Of a stretch of 22,051 nucleotides of DNA, positions 448 to 20,565 are shown piece after piece; within the stretch, counting starts at the first letter, position 1, and the number at the start of each line of letters is the position of its first letter. A model generated the notes under the pieces. That model had not been told where the DNA came from and did not search any database. It saw only the letters and a program-made list of their open reading frames with translations. Origin of the DNA: a virus. Position numbers and translations under genes: made by a program. The stretch covers positions 1 through 22,051 of the IMG/VR virus record IMGVR_UViG_3300032322_002493; one strand, written 5' to 3'.

Positions 448-609
448 CTACAGATCTACCCGAATATAAGAGATTTCTTGGTCTTGTAAACGTTTCTCGT
501 ATTTGTCTGCGTCAATTGTTTCAACATCTTCAAAGGCTTTGCCATTCAGGCAGCCAGTGCGGCACTCCTCGTCAAAATCAAGGTAGAACCGTGTGAGATT
601 TGATGCCAT
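448..609 (-). CDS. Small hypothetical protein (53 aa)
   Basis: ATG at 609-607, stop TAG at 450-448. The product begins MASNLTRFYLDFDEECRTG and ends YIRVDL. It is mildly acidic, has two cysteines (C16, C20), no membrane segment and no domain that I recognise. It overlaps the last 32 bases of the hli gene in another frame and ends just upstream of the glycosyltransferase start, so it fits the dense minus-strand operon. Coding status is inferred from the ordinary amino-acid make-up and the exact filling of the gap between hli and the glycosyltransferase. Function unknown. Confidence 0.6.
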   Translation of the reverse strand: MASNLTRFYLDFDEECRTGCLNGKAFEDVETIDADKYEKRLQDQEISYIRVDL

Positions 610-847
610 CGATCAGGCTCCAAATGCTGGTATGAGTTGTGAATTCGTATAGGAGTACGACACTTAAGACCAACATTGCGATACGACCGTTCACCCGCTC
701 GGCGTACCACAGATGATCATCAATGTCTGTATGCCACTTCCAAAATTTTAAGTCAGGACACTCTTCCAGTATCCAGGTGAACAGTGCGGAAAACATCCAG
801 CCCAAACAAGCCGCGTAACCTTGAATACCTAACAGGATTTTGTTCAT
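578..847 (-). CDS. hli: High-light-inducible protein (Hli), divergent two-helix form
   Basis: The 89-aa product carries the chlorophyll a/b-binding-like motif ExxNGRxAM at residues 50-58 (E50, N53, R55, M58), followed by a hydrophobic stretch to about residue 68. That is the signature of the one-helix Hli/Scp proteins of cyanobacteria and cyanophages. These proteins associate with photosystem II assembly intermediates in the thylakoid and quench excess excitation; phage copies are thought to keep host photosynthesis running during infection. Unlike typical Hli proteins it has a second hydrophobic stretch before the motif (about residues 4-27), giving two predicted membrane helices. Its ATG overlaps the TAA of the upstream 33-aa gene (TAATG), suggesting translational coupling. 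The family call is confident; the role of the extra helix is unknown. Confidence 0.85.
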   Translation of the reverse strand: MNKILLGIQGYAACLGWMFSALFTWILEECPDLKFWKWHTDIDDHLWYAERVNGRIAMLVLSVVLLYEFTTHTSIWSLIDGIKSHTVLP

Positions 848-2335: not shown

Positions 2336-4971
2336 CCAGCCGAAACCAGCAGGCCCTCCGTCCAGGGGAAGTCAATCTCAGCTATATCCCCATTGATTGG
2401 CCTCTCACCCCCCTGGGTGCCAAGAAGGATCCGTACGTCAACGGCTGGCAGAACAAGCCTTTTAGCGTCCGTGAAATCGAGGAGGAAATTGTAGCCGGTA
2501 ACTGCCGTGCCATCGGTCTGCTCGGTGGTCCTGTCTACAACCATCCCTATGGCCTGGTCTGGGTCGACATCGATGGTCCAAGCGTCTACCAGCTGGTGGA
2601 AGGAATCTCGGATCTGCCTTTGTTACAGGCGCTGCCGCCAACCTTAACAATCATGAGCGGCAAGATTGGCCGCGAACGGAAGCTCTATAAACTCAGCCGC
2701 GATAAACACAAGCATTTCGTACGGAACAAGTACACCTGGCACGCGGAAGCAGATAAAGAAAAGCTTGAGATCCTGTGGCAACGGCACCAGGGTGTTCTCA
2801 TGGGTCTGCACCCTGAGACTGAAGGCTACTTCACTGCAGAAGGCCAGGGCTTTGAATGGGTTGATGATCTGCCTGAATTCCCGGAATGGCTGCTGAACGC
2901 CATCATCAATAAAAACGTTCGCCAGGGGACACCGGCCAAGGAACGCACTCGGATTGTGGGTCCGGGTTTTGCAATTAACGCAGAGGTGTCCTTAGAGCGG
3001 GACATGAAACTGGCGACGGAAGCCATGTGGGCACTGCCGCCGGAAGCTGCGGATGACTACGACATCTGGATTACGATTGGCCAGACGCTCCACAGCTTGG
3101 ATGAATCCCTGCTTGATAACTGGGATGAGTGGTCTAAGCAGTCAGAAAAATATCGGGAAGGTGAGTGCCACAGGCGTTGGCGTTCCTTCTCTAAAAACGG
3201 TGGTCGGGGCCTTGGTTCTTTGATTCATATCGCACAGGAGCATGGCTGGAAGCCTTCTCAAGAACATCGTGCGATGAACGTTGACGATGACACGCTAGAG
3301 CACGTCTCCAAATTGCTTGCTGAATTAGAAGAGGATCTACAAATGGCACCGGAAGCTCTGGTAGAAACCAAAGGTCAAGTTCAAGCTGAACCCGTGTGGA
3401 AGGTAAGGCAAGCGCAGGCGCCTGCAGAGAAACAAGGAAAAGACCAACGGACCAGAAACCCTTCATCGAACGTAGTTACGGACGTGGTGTTGGACTTGTA
3501 TAAGGGGGATCTGCTTTTTAGTCAACCGCATGGCCAGTTCTTCCTGTACCAGAAAGAGGCCCGTGGTCTGTGGTCCCCTTTAACCAAGATCGAAATCCTC
3601 GGTGACATCCGTAACAAACTGCAACTGCTTGGCGACTTCCTTCCGAACGGCTTCAGCACCAACCTGATGAACGATGTCTGCACCCAACTGCAGTCGGTAC
3701 TTGCCGTTGAGGAATGGTATGACGGCACTGAACTGCTCCTGTTCACCAATGGTGTGTTGAATGTTCAGACCAGGGAGCTGCTTCCGTTTAACCGGGAGAT
3801 GCACCTGGTTCAGCAGATGCCGTACCCCTACGATCCAGCTGCCACCTGTGAAGAAATTGTTAAGTGGCTGAAGAGTACCCAGCACGACAGCTGGGAACGC
3901 ACTCAAGTTTTGCGGGCATGGCTGCGGGCAACACTGCTCGGGCGCTACGAGATCCAGAAGTTTGTGGAGATTGTCGGCCCTGGTAAGTCGGGTAAATCAA
4001 CTTACGCAAACCTGGCTGTGGCATTGGTGGGTAAAAGCAATACTTACTCCACGGACTTCGAGAACATGGAGAAGAACCGCTTTGAAGCGGCTGCCTACAT
4101 GGGCAAAAAACTTTTACTGTTCCAGGATGCCGACCGCTGGGGTGGTTCGGTCTCTCGCCTGAAAGCCATCACTGGTAACGACTGGATCCGTAGCGAACGC
4201 AAGTATCAGGGCGAAGGTCTTGACCCATTCCAATACCACGGGGTGGTGATGATCACCGCCAACGAAGCTATCCAATCCACTGACTACACCTCTGGTCTGG
4301 CCCGTCGTCGCCTCACTATTCCGTTCGACCGCCCCTTCACTGGTGGGCCGAATGAACAAAAAGAATTGATTAAGTTCAATTCCAAGGGTGAGCCCCAGGG
4401 TGTGTTTTCGCCACTGCTGCCGGGCCTGGTGAACTGGCTCCTGGATATGAGCGAAGAAGAGATGCGGGAGTACCTGATGGAAACTTCCAAGAAGGTCAAG
4501 TTCTTCAAGAAGTACGAGAAGATGCAGAACCTCAGGTCTAATCCCCTGTTGGACTGGATGGAGCACAAGATCATCTTCGATCCAGGTATCAGCTCTGCTG
4601 TTGGCTTTACGAAGAACGCACCGATGGGTTCGTCCCATATCTACGCCAATCAGGACAAGTGGTTGTACGCCAGCTACGCCGAGTTCTGCCGTCAGTGCAA
4701 TGTCGGCATCATGTCGCGCAACCGATTTGAGCCCCTGTTCATTGACGTATGCAAGCACCAGCTCAAGATTGATGTCTTCCCCATGCGAAATACCAGGGGT
4801 ATGCGGGTCGTGAACGTTGCCGTCAGGGAGTCCAGCCCGAAATATGAAGACTGGCCGTCCATTGTTGAAGTGTCGTCAGATAAGGAAAAGTACAAAGAGT
4901 TTTATGGAATGAAGCTAGATGCAAATGTTGATGCGACAATGGAAGATGAACTAGAAATTACAGATGTCTAA
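2332..4971 (+). CDS. Primase-polymerase / D5-like helicase fusion protein
   Basis: 879 aa, the largest replication gene here. N-terminal bifunctional primase-polymerase (AEP) domain: IPIDWPLTP..K.P....W near residues 19-39 and VWVDID with metal-binding candidates D79 and D81. About residues 215-305 resemble the PriCT-2 domain (WALPPEAADDYDIWITIG; RRWRSFSKNGGRGLGSLIHIA). A polar linker (about 310-385) leads to a D5 N-terminal-type region and an SF3 helicase: Walker A GPGKSGKST near 548-556, Walker B LLLFQDAD near 594-602, sensor MITANEA near 640, arginine-rich LARRRLTIPF near 657. It would prime and unwind DNA at the phage fork. The 4-base overlap with the upstream gene and 8-base overlap with speD place it inside one operon. 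T4-like and T7-like cyanophages use different primase-helicases, so this hints at another lineage. Confidence 0.88.
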   Translation: MTSRNQQALRPGEVNLSYIPIDWPLTPLGAKKDPYVNGWQNKPFSVREIEEEIVAGNCRAIGLLGGPVYNHPYGLVWVDIDGPSVYQLVEGISDLPLLQALPPTLTIMSGKIGRERKLYKLSRDKHKHFVRNKYTWHAEADKEKLEILWQRHQGVLMGLHPETEGYFTAEGQGFEWVDDLPEFPEWLLNAIINKNVRQGTPAKERTRIVGPGFAINAEVSLERDMKLATEAMWALPPEAADDYDIWITIGQTLHSLDESLLDNWDEWSKQSEKYREGECHRRWRSFSKNGGRGLGSLIHIAQEHGWKPSQEHRAMNVDDDTLEHVSKLLAELEEDLQMAPEALVETKGQVQAEPVWKVRQAQAPAEKQGKDQRTRNPSSNVVTDVVLDLYKGDLLFSQPHGQFFLYQKEARGLWSPLTKIEILGDIRNKLQLLGDFLPNGFSTNLMNDVCTQLQSVLAVEEWYDGTELLLFTNGVLNVQTRELLPFNREMHLVQQMPYPYDPAATCEEIVKWLKSTQHDSWERTQVLRAWLRATLLGRYEIQKFVEIVGPGKSGKSTYANLAVALVGKSNTYSTDFENMEKNRFEAAAYMGKKLLLFQDADRWGGSVSRLKAITGNDWIRSERKYQGEGLDPFQYHGVVMITANEAIQSTDYTSGLARRRLTIPFDRPFTGGPNEQKELIKFNSKGEPQGVFSPLLPGLVNWLLDMSEEEMREYLMETSKKVKFFKKYEKMQNLRSNPLLDWMEHKIIFDPGISSAVGFTKNAPMGSSHIYANQDKWLYASYAEFCRQCNVGIMSRNRFEPLFIDVCKHQLKIDVFPMRNTRGMRVVNVAVRESSPKYEDWPSIVEVSSDKEKYKEFYGMKLDANVDATMEDELEITDV

Positions 4972-5323
4972 TGGGCGGCACCTAATTCTGGACCTGTATG
5001 ACTGCGATCCAGAGGCATTAGATAATTTTGATCTGTTGGAGGAGTGGCTGGAAGCTGCCCTCCTGATGTCCAAGGCCACGATACTTCGGATTTTTGGTGA
5101 GAAATTCGAGCCACAAGGTGTGACTTTACTGGCACTTCTGGCTGAATCTCACGCATCAATTCATACTTGGCCGGAGATGGGCTATGCCGCCATCGATCTC
5201 TACACCTGCGGGGACACGACCAACACGCATAAGGCTGCTGAGTTCTTGAAGTACAAACTCAAGGCCAAAATTTCGGAGGAGCGGGAATTAACCCGTTCTA
5301 TTACTCCGTCAGTTTGTGTATAG
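4964..5323 (+). CDS. speD: S-adenosylmethionine decarboxylase proenzyme
   Basis: 119 aa, the normal length of the prokaryotic class 1B enzyme. The motif LLAESHASIHTWPE (residues 58-70) contains the E61-S62 self-cleavage site; S62 becomes the pyruvoyl group. H67 and C82 (in YTCGD) match the processing and catalytic residues of the Thermotoga enzyme (S63, H68, C83) with an offset of one. It decarboxylates SAM to give the aminopropyl donor for spermidine. speD is known in several marine cyanophages, where polyamines may help DNA packaging or support the host photosystem. Its ATG lies eight bases inside the primase-helicase gene. No aminopropyltransferase is visible in the window, so the product is presumably used by host enzymes. 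Confidence 0.93.
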   Translation: MSNGRHLILDLYDCDPEALDNFDLLEEWLEAALLMSKATILRIFGEKFEPQGVTLLALLAESHASIHTWPEMGYAAIDLYTCGDTTNTHKAAEFLKYKLKAKISEERELTRSITPSVCV

Positions 5324-7614: not shown

Positions 7615-8538
7615 GTGTCTAGGAATTCAAATCAAACTAACCAACGGCAGCGAACAAAAGAAAACCCCTTGGATCTGGGGTATTTCTCGCAGCTGTCGTT
7701 GCGTTATTTGAGGGGTACTCTTGGACCTTTGAACCAGGTTGGACTGAATGGCTACGGCGGTGGTACCTATAACCACTGGTTTCAAATCAACTTAACAGAA
7801 CCAGGCTGGATCCTTGTGGTTAAGGACGGCCCACGTCCTAACTACATTCAAACATCAATGTATGACCTCAATCACACACCGATTGTTGGTCTGCCAATTT
7901 TTCAAGAAGACTCCATTCGTGCTGGTACAAGCCTGACAACGGGTGAGGCTTACTTCCCGTATCTGGATACCACAATGAGTACCCAGTCGGATCTATACAA
8001 TACCTACTCACGTCTGCGACTGGATCGTGGAGATGATCGATATTACCCACTGCAAGCTGGAAATTACCTTTTATGTATCTCTACTACACGTAATGAACGT
8101 CTTGATTACAACGTTGGCGTAATTGTTGAATTTGCTGAAGTTGAATATCTGCTTGCCCTGGAAGATTTCACCCTTTATCTCCAAGAAACAACAATTGATG
8201 ACGTTACAACCGTCACATACAACTCTCCAATCACAGTTGATACCAGTATTTCTACAGTTCCAGGGAAGCCAAACGGTTTTACTGACACGGAGTGTGCTAT
8301 TAACTCTGGCGTAACAGTAACAGTTTTGGATGGTTCTGAGTGGTTGATTGGCAGTCCCCAGGGAAGTGGCCCTGCTTTGACTGATGACAACTTCTTCTTA
8401 CTTGAGTTTGGAGATCCTGAATTTAGCAATACCGTACACGACCATACCCTGTCAGAATGGAAAAATGCTTGGAGTAAACAACATCATCCAGACGAAAAGT
8501 TCCCAGAAATCTTTGTTGCGTTAACTAACAGACCATGA
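7615..8538 (+). CDS. Conserved cyanophage-type protein, probably virion-associated
   Basis: 307 aa from GTG 7615, 18 bases after the HNH gene. The protein is rich in beta-prone residues, with GYFSQLSLRYLRGTLGPLNQVGLNGYGGGTYNHWFQ near residues 22-57, many aromatic residues, and a C-terminal HTLSEWKNAWSKQHHPDEKFPEIF segment. I recognise this general architecture from uncharacterised marine cyanophage proteins, but not a named domain. No signal peptide, membrane helix or catalytic motif can be seen. A structural (decoration or tail) role is inferred from composition and from its company; it could also be an uncharacterised accessory protein. The stop overlaps the start of the next small gene (ATGATG). 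Confidence 0.7.
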   Translation: MSRNSNQTNQRQRTKENPLDLGYFSQLSLRYLRGTLGPLNQVGLNGYGGGTYNHWFQINLTEPGWILVVKDGPRPNYIQTSMYDLNHTPIVGLPIFQEDSIRAGTSLTTGEAYFPYLDTTMSTQSDLYNTYSRLRLDRGDDRYYPLQAGNYLLCISTTRNERLDYNVGVIVEFAEVEYLLALEDFTLYLQETTIDDVTTVTYNSPITVDTSISTVPGKPNGFTDTECAINSGVTVTVLDGSEWLIGSPQGSGPALTDDNFFLLEFGDPEFSNTVHDHTLSEWKNAWSKQHHPDEKFPEIFVALTNRP

Positions 8539-8672
8539 TGGGTTTTTATAACTGGATTATTTGCAAGCTTTTCAAGCGTTGCGAGATTTACAGCGACACG
8601 CCAACGGAGAAATTCCGTCGCTATTGTGAAGAAAATCCTGGTGCAGTCCAGTGTCGGATTTACGACAGCTGA
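8535..8672 (+). CDS. CP12-like miniprotein (45 aa)
   Basis: ATG 8535 (or the next ATG, 8538) overlaps the previous stop; TGA at 8670-8672. The last 25 residues read DTPTEKFRRYCEENPGAVQ followed by CRIYDS. This matches the C-terminal signature of CP12, where a P-x-E-x-aromatic stretch leads to C-x8-C-R-x-Y-D. In CP12 that cysteine pair is oxidised in the dark and binds GAPDH, shutting the Calvin cycle with PRK; cyanophages are known to carry cp12. Here C31 and C40 have the right spacing. The N-terminal half is short and hydrophobic (MMGFYNWIICKLFKRC), with a C10/C16 pair that does not match normal CP12, so the PRK-binding part appears to be missing. The call is by motif only. Confidence 0.55.
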   Translation: MMGFYNWIICKLFKRCEIYSDTPTEKFRRYCEENPGAVQCRIYDS

Positions 8673-8700
8673 GTTTTTCTTCCTTGGTTAAAAAGAAAAA

Positions 8701-8853
8701 ATGCAGAAGAATCAAAAGAAAAAAGTTAGTAACAACACTGCGTCTAAAGAACCAGGCGATAGTGGTGACCCGCTTGATTCCATGGATTCGTATTGGGAAA
8801 AACTACGCGTGGATGGCCAGTTTAGCCGTGGGCAAAAGCCGGCGACAGATTAA
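8701..8853 (+). CDS. Small hypothetical protein (50 aa)
   Basis: ATG 8701 to TAA 8851-8853. The product begins with a basic run (MQKNQKKKV), then a polar acidic middle (KEPGDSGDPLDSMDSYWEKLRVDG) and ends QKPATD. It lies 28 bases after the CP12-like gene and 10 bases before the next start. Its composition looks like a normal soluble protein, whereas the overlapping frame through the same bases gives an implausible Lys/Arg/Val-rich stretch. Function unknown. Confidence 0.55.
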   Translation: MQKNQKKKVSNNTASKEPGDSGDPLDSMDSYWEKLRVDGQFSRGQKPATD

Positions 8854-8863
8854 CGATTGGTTG

Positions 8864-9142
8864 ATGCGCAAAACCAAGAGAAAGCGCGTTCAAAAATTAG
8901 ATAACAATTTGACTGGTTTGGGAGGAAACTCCGGTCATGCCATTGCTCTTAGGCAACTGTACGCATGGTTGGAAGTCATTCCACCAGGGGATATGGTGAT
9001 GTTCTACTGCGAATCTGCAGAGGCAAAACGGCAGATGATTATTTGGAAAAAATGGATTAACCGTCATCACCCAAATCTTTTGTATTCAATTGACGAAGAA
9101 ACGAAATCTTTCTATATCTATAAACCACACGACATAGAATAA
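8864..9142 (+). CDS. Hypothetical protein (92 aa)
   Basis: The frame is open from 8651, but I place the start at ATG 8864 because the upstream part is the out-of-frame shadow of the CP12-like and 50-aa genes. The 92-residue product has a basic start (MRKTKRKRVQ), a helical centre (GHAIALRQLYAWLEVIPPGDMVMFYCES) and a tryptophan-rich end (IIWKKWINRHHPNLL...FYIYKPHD). It looks like a small globular, possibly nucleic-acid-binding protein; no family recognised. It is followed 18 bases later by the next gene in the same direction. Confidence 0.65.
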   Translation: MRKTKRKRVQKLDNNLTGLGGNSGHAIALRQLYAWLEVIPPGDMVMFYCESAEAKRQMIIWKKWINRHHPNLLYSIDEETKSFYIYKPHDIE

Positions 9143-9325: not shown

Positions 9326-9487
9326 TCAATCAGGCAACGCCTGAAACCAGTACACAACCCCATCATTATTCTCAACCCATTCACGGGTTTTATATGCGTC
9401 GCTCTTATCAAGGGTGACGCATTTTCTTTCTTCTCCAAGTTCCCAGCAGATATTGACCCGTATACACGGTTCTTTATAGTTCTTCAC
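9326..9487 (-). CDS. Small hypothetical protein (53 aa)
   Basis: GTG 9487-9485 overlaps the lysin stop in a GTGA of four bases, and TGA is at 9328-9326. An open frame reaches further upstream to 9547, but that part lies inside the lysin gene and the GTGA junction marks the better start. Product: MKNYKEPCIRVNICWELGEERK... ending NNDGVVYWFQALPD, probably a small beta-sheet domain. It is the last gene of the long minus-strand fibre/lysis arm. Function unknown. Confidence 0.6.
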   Translation of the reverse strand: MKNYKEPCIRVNICWELGEERKCVTLDKSDAYKTREWVENNDGVVYWFQALPD

Positions 9488-10599
9488 TTGCTTACCAGAA
9501 TTGCCCAGCCTGTGTTTTTTCCGTCGCATTCCCAACGCCGTAACCAATTTTTCTTGCTGTACTTAACTGCAGTACCTGCTTTGCGGTCATGACTGACATA
9601 ACCGCCATTTACCATATCAGCTTCCCCGTTGGGATCGTGGAAGACAAAGGAATCTGGTGTAAATCCAATGCAGCAGGTCCAGTGCCCACCACCTGTGGGA
9701 TAACTTGCTGTTCCTTTGTGAAGCCAGCCAACAGCTACAGGTCTGCCGTTGCGAATTTCGTTTTCTAGTAATGCGCTATTCCCATTGGTGATAAACCTGG
9801 CATTAAGTCCCAGCTCTCTGATGGCCTGGAGCTGAGCGTTGCGGTTGGTGGTGTCACCGTACTTCGCACGAATCTTGTTGTACTCATCATCATTTTTGAC
9901 CTTGCCGTAATACCGGCAGATCATGGCACAGGTTGATGAAAAACACTCCCGATATCCAGTACCAGATTGATTATCCAGCTGATATTCATAAGGAACAGGC
10001 AGTATTTTTTCAAGGACAACACCTGGTTGATTGGAGTCGGGAACTTTTAACTCTCGATCCATGATCTGGATTAATTTTGTACTGTACAAAGGATCGGTGG
10101 CGTAACCTTCTTTTTCAAGCAGCTGGGCACATTCGTTCCTGCTGGTAGCTCTATTCACGCCTTTGTAGTTATTGAAATCTTTGTACCAGCGGTCAACCAG
10201 ATATTTAATACAGGAATACAAATCTGGAAAACGCTTAAACCAATCTTTGATTGTTACTTCTTTTCCACCAACAACTTCCTTGGTTTCGACAAAACAACCT
10301 TCGCCGTCTTTTGATTTAATACCGAAGTAATTGTGAGTACATGCAGTGTGCTTCCCATAGGATGATTCGAGTGCCCATTGAGCAGCAACACATTCCGGAA
10401 ATTTTGCACCTGCTTTCTTGGCAGCTGCCAACACTCCTGCCCATGTATTGGAAAATTCTTCTTTTTGTGCGTTGCGATATTTAATTGCAAACTGATCTAA
10501 AACATCAGGAGTAACTGCTGTTTGCAGCCACTCCCATGCTTCTATTTGGTGAGGCAGATTCTTAAAGTGTTCGGCTGCGTCAACCAGTTTTATGGACAT
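9484..10599 (-). CDS. Bifunctional lysin: glucosaminidase (GH73-like) plus C39-like peptidase
   Basis: 371 aa with three parts. Residues 10-45 (HFKNLPHQIEAWEWLQTAV...QFAIKYR) form a short helical motif that recurs in cyanophage cell-wall enzymes. Residues about 48-182 look like a GH73 N-acetylglucosaminidase: FPECVAAQWALESSYGKH with catalytic candidate E78, NYFGIK, and FPDLYSCIKYLVDRWY. Residues about 200-345 look like a C39-family papain-like peptidase: YRECFSSTCAMI (C219), GGHWTCCIGF (H306) and FHDPNG (D322). Together they would cut the glycan and act on peptide bonds of peptidoglycan. No signal peptide is seen, so release depends on a holin, or the protein is virion-borne. It is transcribed after the two oxygenase genes. 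Confidence 0.82.
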   Translation of the reverse strand: MSIKLVDAAEHFKNLPHQIEAWEWLQTAVTPDVLDQFAIKYRNAQKEEFSNTWAGVLAAAKKAGAKFPECVAAQWALESSYGKHTACTHNYFGIKSKDGEGCFVETKEVVGGKEVTIKDWFKRFPDLYSCIKYLVDRWYKDFNNYKGVNRATSRNECAQLLEKEGYATDPLYSTKLIQIMDRELKVPDSNQPGVVLEKILPVPYEYQLDNQSGTGYRECFSSTCAMICRYYGKVKNDDEYNKIRAKYGDTTNRNAQLQAIRELGLNARFITNGNSALLENEIRNGRPVAVGWLHKGTASYPTGGGHWTCCIGFTPDSFVFHDPNGEADMVNGGYVSHDRKAGTAVKYSKKNWLRRWECDGKNTGWAILVSK

Positions 10600-19944: not shown

Positions 19945-19977
19945 GTTCGGTATAGTTAAAGACGATTGATGGGATCT

Positions 19978-20565
19978 ATGGGAATCCTTTGCGACGCCGA
20001 AATCAAGAGATTTGCCCTGGAACAGGGGATGATCGAGCCATTCAATGATCGTCTCATCAATGAAGAAGATGGACGCCGTATCTTGAGCTATGGACTCAGC
20101 TCATACGGATATGACATCCGCCTTTCACCCAAGCAATGCTTGATTTTTGGCCGCATCCAAGAGGGCGTGTCGGATCCTAAGGATTTCAACCCCAAGATCT
20201 TGTCGGAATCTGCCTTGCTTGAGGATGAAAAGGGCAAGTATTTCCTCTTGCCTCCTTACGGGTACTGTTTGGCAGTAGCAGAAGAACGGCTTAAGCTGCC
20301 CCAGGATGTGACCGTGATTGCCATGGGTAAGAGCAGTTACGCCCGCTCAGGCATCATCGCCAACATCACCCCTGCAGAGGCCGGTTGGGAGGGCTACCTG
20401 ACCCTGGAGATTAGCAACGCCACTGGTCAGTTCAACCGTATCTACGCTAACGAGGGCATCATCCAGCTACTATTCCTGCGTGGCACTCCTTGTGAGGTGT
20501 CGTACCAGGACCGGAAGGGCAAGTACCAGAACCAGGCCCAAGAAGTCGTCTACTCAAAGGCATGA
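19978..20565 (+). CDS. dcd: dCTP deaminase
   Basis: 195 aa from ATG 19978; in-frame ATG 19969 and TTG 19966 would add three or four residues (MGS). The start chosen gives MGILCDAEIKRF, like the usual Dcd N-terminus. Conserved parts: SSYGYDIRLS (41-50), GKSSYARSG with S119 and R123, GWEGYLTLEISN with the catalytic Glu E144, IYANEGIIQLLF (155-166) and a C-terminal GKYQNQ. The enzyme deaminates dCTP to dUTP, feeding dUMP and dTTP synthesis, useful for phage DNA production from host nucleotides. A bifunctional dUTPase activity cannot be excluded. It lies 33 bases after the methyltransferase-like gene and overlaps the next gene (ATGA). Confidence 0.9.
   Translation: MGILCDAEIKRFALEQGMIEPFNDRLINEEDGRRILSYGLSSYGYDIRLSPKQCLIFGRIQEGVSDPKDFNPKILSESALLEDEKGKYFLLPPYGYCLAVAEERLKLPQDVTVIAMGKSSYARSGIIANITPAEAGWEGYLTLEISNATGQFNRIYANEGIIQLLFLRGTPCEVSYQDRKGKYQNQAQEVVYSKA

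Follow-up and report, generated by a model that had tools for sequence, protein, structure and literature searches.

The window analysed here, a 22,051-base stretch comprising the whole of virus record IMGVR_UViG_3300032322_002493, represents part of the genome of a freshwater cyanophage resembling S-EIV1. Among 50,697 phage records, Synechococcus phage S-EIV1 was the only close relative at the DNA level, and the match extended over only about 100 bases. A small frame overlapping the end of a 307-aa gene is translated into the 45-aa protein MMGFYNWIICKLFKRCEIYSDTPTEKFRRYCEENPGAVQCRIYDS, which we call mini-CP12. The features of the locus are:

7615-8538, plus strand: upstream gene, 307 aa, from the list of open reading frames; same neighbour and same overlap geometry in nearly all relatives
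8535-8672, plus strand: mini-CP12 gene, 45 aa plus stop; Pfam CP12 match, conservation in relatives and pN/pS well below 1
8535-8582, plus strand: N-terminal segment MMGFYNWIICKLFKRC, short, hydrophobic and basic, containing C-x5-C; helix predicted for residues 4-12
8601-8669, plus strand: GAPDH-binding C-terminal tail of CP12, PTEKFRRYCEENPGAVQCRIYDS; cysteine pair C31-x8-C40, penultimate residue acidic (D44); Pfam profile positions 49-70

The stop of the upstream gene and the start of mini-CP12 share the sequence ATGA, an overlap that suggests translational coupling. A promoter scan around the mini-CP12 gene gave fewer sites than shuffled sequences, and Rfam and tRNA scans gave no matches. 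Mini-CP12 is followed by two overlapping plus-strand frames (8651-9142 and 8701-8853), possibly overlapping genes; such pairs occur in several relatives, where both frames look conserved and the smaller often ends in FEFDR or FDR, the type of ending also seen in a 296-aa S-EIV1 protein annotated as PurM. Elsewhere in the window, an S-adenosylmethionine decarboxylase (4964-5323, plus strand; PHROG E 6e-37) and a dCTP deaminase (19966-20565, plus strand; Pfam E 2.5e-23) are common to S-EIV1. The product of 9484-10599 (minus strand; 371 aa), in which a C39-like peptidase domain comes after a glucosaminidase domain, is probably a lysin or virion enzyme, and an 89-aa frame at 578-847 (minus strand), containing AERVNGRIAML, the motif of high-light-inducible proteins, and weakly matching the PHROG hli (E 0.018) and chlorophyll a/b-binding (E 0.055) families, is probably a phage Hli gene.

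CP12 switches off photosynthetic carbon fixation during the night. In solved complexes its two N-terminal helices bind PRK and its C-terminal domain puts the tail into the GAPDH active site (PMC10253348). The sequence-only reading had described the small frame as a truncated CP12 keeping the GAPDH-binding end only, with exact C-x8-C-R-x-Y-D spacing in its C-terminal half, and this description was borne out. The tail reads C31-x8-C40-R-I-Y-D, and residues 23-44 matched the Pfam CP12 profile (PF02672) with 27.3 bits (E 6.5e-6), above the curated cut-off of 22.7 bits. The alignment was confined to the last of the 70 profile positions (49 to 70), which form the GAPDH-binding end; positions 1-48 were unmatched and the AWD_VEE core is absent. 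The C-terminal cysteine pair encloses the central proline (P35), and the penultimate residue, acidic as in the GapB extension, is either D or E in every one of the 37 family members. Given the roughly 200 frames in the window that reach 35 aa, such a match has a chance expectation of about 1e-3 for one sequence, and the corresponding S-EIV1 frame, the 37 matching family members and the purifying selection described below place it far beyond chance.

A phmmer search of the PDB returned 3zdf_C, 6gfo_E and 3b1j_C, all CP12 chains of GAPDH complexes; 3zdf_C, the best match, has 23 residues and 3b1j_C has 25. The template-free model built from the family alignment, with one row from the phage collection left out, was of moderate confidence (mean pLDDT 67, pTM 0.35) and contained helices at residues 4-12 (pLDDT about 58-66) and 23-33. 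Foldseek comparison of this model with 350,542 PDB chains (E up to 10) gave five matches, none significant alone and all to CP12 bound to GAPDH, with the tail overlaying 3qv1 and 3b1j at an rmsd of 0.9-1.2 Å over 19-20 columns; since Foldseek also scores amino-acid similarity, this result is partly tied to the sequence match. Judged by its sequence, mini-CP12 retains only the GAPDH-binding end of CP12 and lacks the PRK-binding half. From the resemblance in sequence and fold to GAPDH-bound CP12 chains we infer that it binds GAPDH, and recruitment of PRK is not expected because the PRK-binding domain is missing.

The same frame was found in S-EIV1, where it also has 45 aa, is 66% identical to that of the window and occupies the same position after primase, SpeD, glycosyltransferase and the upstream gene. 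It is unannotated in the S-EIV1 record, in which no product is named CP12. Scans of IMG/VR yielded 17 loci with the mini-protein as query and 49 loci with the upstream gene, and from both scans, S-EIV1 and the window we assembled 37 distinct mini-CP12s of 37 to 46 aa. The expectation that the frame would be conserved in relatives thus held for S-EIV1 and 35 further distinct relatives. All 37 matched Pfam CP12 (E up to 0.1, some below the curated cut-off), and Y30, C31 and P35 are invariant in their alignment; both tail cysteines are present in 34, the second being lost in L010, L013 and L017. The start context is ATGA in 35 members and TAATG in two. Of the 49 upstream-gene loci, 40 contain mini-CP12, always as one copy and as the sole CP12 match; its absence from the other nine indicates that it is not essential to the lineage. 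Nine records of about 79-86 kb hold one match each, the mini-gene; on this ground both a full CP12 of which the gene would be a remnant and an additional CP12 gene in the same phage were rejected. The family is conserved across one virus lineage, the S-EIV1-like cyanophages.

Codon comparisons gave dN/dS of 0.06-0.20 in most close pairs (0.17 for the window and L022, 0.06 for L005 and L006), with values of up to 0.81 in the L040/L043/L050/L056 group, where changes are very few. Over ten close pairs, pN/pS was 0.08 in the last 19 residues and 0.27 in residues 2-16, so that both halves are constrained, the tail more strongly. In S-EIV1-like cyanophages, selection preserves the mini-CP12 gene.

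The N-terminal leader stands where CP12 has its PRK-binding helices. In the subgroup of the window it is of the FYNW type (M-x-x-FYNWLICKLFKRC) and near-invariant; leaders elsewhere are unrelated in sequence and likewise hydrophobic-basic, for example MIKRLLAWFKGK, MIKQLLRLLKK, MIYRLLSFWSRLTKQ and MINSIKKLIKRLFKR. The hydrophobic N-terminal stretch with its own C-x5-C, pointed out in the sequence-only reading, is present in the window (C10-x5-C16), but the motif is limited to one subgroup (17 of 37 members) and its context is unrelated to the N-terminal cysteine pair of CP12; a redox role as a family trait was accordingly rejected. Among the matches listed from 244 cyanobacterial genomes we found no host source of the leader: none covers it, none begins before profile position 11 and the shortest frame has 75 aa. 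On the upstream-gene tree the FYNW leader type changes at least four times, implying that the leader or the entire small gene has been exchanged between lineages. MIK-type tails mostly have W where FYNW-type tails have F, and this reading of the alignment favours exchange of the whole gene.

Mini-CP12 shares with the CP12 of cyanobacteria and plants (PF02672) the C-terminal short helix, the C-x8-C pair with central proline and the CR-x-Y-D/E end, but lacks the CP12-type N-terminal cysteine pair, the AWD_VEE core and the PRK-binding helices, and measures 37-46 aa against about 75-80 aa. Marine cyanophage CP12 (for example phrog_627 and phrog_2603; 75-76 positions), for which a Calvin-cycle block has been proposed, likewise has a phage-borne CP12 C-terminus; unlike mini-CP12, however, it is about 75 aa long and keeps the middle region. 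Mini-CP12 matches these two families weakly (E 0.015 and 0.053), and the longer marine-type CP12 is found in relatives L077-L087, except L086. The plant GapB extension and the CP12-like tails of ADK3 and argininosuccinate lyase (PMC9406205) also lack the PRK-binding part, and that of GapB is an inhibitor of GAPDH in its own right. They are extensions of a large enzyme, whereas the mini-CP12 tail is free, virus-encoded and preceded by a short leader. Two further short cyanophage proteins are tail-only:

L002:2962-3126: tail-only CP12 of S-CRES3 (gp30, annotated 'CP12 domain protein', 54 aa)
L003:2905-3078: tail-only CP12 of S-CBS2 (unannotated)

Unlike mini-CP12, these belong to another phage lineage and gene neighbourhood and have lost both tail cysteines, so they would be redox-insensitive. 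A different tail-only architecture was seen on a 99.5-kb viral contig (L073:3647-4090), with the CP12 tail behind a cysteine-rich stretch, CSCPPGCVYCAKTGECTC. Cyanophage proteins resembling the CP12 carboxy terminus are mentioned in reviews (PMC3906501; PMC9406205) and are already known; what appears to be new is the tail-only family in S-EIV1-like phages, of which no description was found in a literature search that did not extend to the original publications on S-EIV1, on CP12 in phages (Thompson 2011) and on the cyanobacterial complex.

In plant GapB, a CP12-like tail acts in cis: its disulfide sets the acidic end near Arg77 and NADPH-dependent activity falls, the acidic residue of the GapB or CP12 tail contacting the NADP-binding arginine (PMC3838966; PMC4436894). 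Because mini-CP12 has the features of this tail and nothing recognisable for PRK, we propose, by analogy, that it is probably a stand-alone GAPDH-inhibiting tail, working like the GapB extension in trans. In the oxidised state, a C31-C40 disulfide would close the loop and the acidic end would enter the coenzyme site of Gap2, the photosynthetic GAPDH of the host. There it would contend with the NADPH 2'-phosphate for the arginine to which this group binds, and activity with NADPH would drop, in the manner of the cis-acting GapB extension. With PRK not recruited, the block would fall on the NADPH-consuming step alone, and NADPH and carbon might be spared for phage nucleotide synthesis; S-EIV1 encodes ThyX and dCTP deaminase, indicating that the phage makes deoxynucleotide precursors. 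The leader could provide a second contact, with the GAPDH surface, a membrane or another phage protein. Two considerations speak against an inhibitor. A free tail must oxidise to bind, yet infection in the light keeps thioredoxin reduced, a problem to which the family offers no solution, except perhaps in members with a lost cysteine; and binding by the tail on its own may be weaker than that of full-length CP12.

A rather unlikely possibility, adding to GAPDH inhibition more than opposing it, is that the leader is embedded in the membrane surface and tethers GAPDH to the thylakoid or the plasma membrane. The first 15 residues carry a net charge of +2 to +6 in all 37 aligned members, and the hydrophobic-basic character stays while the leader sequence varies between subgroups. 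The helical hydrophobic moment exceeded that of shuffled sequences over the family as a whole and in 7 of 13 representatives from several subgroups (L025, L030, L039, L043, L054, L065 and L074; p 0.002-0.044). Against this, the moment was not significant for L033, L064 or the leader of the window (p 0.39 and 0.69 in two runs), for which an amphipathic helix is therefore unsupported, and L076, a further S-EIV1-like member, has an acidic, polar N-terminus without the hydrophobic-basic leader. A transmembrane helix was rejected, since the hydrophobic run of about ten residues is followed by lysine and is too short to span a membrane. The suggestion in the sequence-only reading that the protein acts from a membrane accordingly survives only as a weak lead, with the amphipathic helix seen in several other subgroups and not measurably in that of the window.

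The tail might instead be a decoy that occupies GAPDH and displaces the full-length CP12 of the host, thereby preventing assembly of the GAPDH-CP12-PRK complex. In the dark PRK would then stay active, as would GAPDH sites left unbound, and the effect on the Calvin cycle would be opposite to inhibition. Loss of the PRK-binding half with the GAPDH-binding half kept is the form expected of a dominant negative, and cyanobacterial genomes do carry full-length CP12; however, in plant GapB such a tail suffices to reduce activity with NADPH (PMC3838966), and the usual interpretation of cyanophage CP12 is that of a Calvin-cycle inhibitor (PMC10452541); we regard a decoy as unlikely. Less likely still is that the tail has turned to another partner, be it a different dehydrogenase, a metal ion or a protein of the phage, for instance the product of the coupled upstream gene: the constant coupling to one upstream gene and the copper binding of CP12 (PMC3906501) would fit, but the positions that have been kept, YC..NP....CRIYD/E, are those of the GAPDH-binding tail, with an invariantly acidic end. 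That a frame so short, and unannotated in S-EIV1, arose by chance or is a decaying remnant of full CP12 can practically be dismissed in view of the low dN/dS in most close pairs, the 37 intact distinct copies and the fixed position with its overlap.

Cyanophage CP12 is thought to stop host carbon fixation, and mini-CP12, a probable GAPDH-inhibiting tail that keeps the GAPDH end without PRK capture, would separate the two activities; it is small enough for a synthetic peptide, which makes the need for PRK capture directly testable. The gene had been suspected of escaping annotation and did so in the S-EIV1 and S-CBS2 records, so that CP12 surveys based on annotated genes undercount. It is an improbable extension that the regulator of S-EIV1-like phages forms a class of its own: a GAPDH-blocking peptide, free and switched by redox state, with an interchangeable membrane-binding leader, which inhibits and relocates host GAPDH and leaves PRK free. 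If true, these phages would redirect carbon flux differently from those with full-length CP12.
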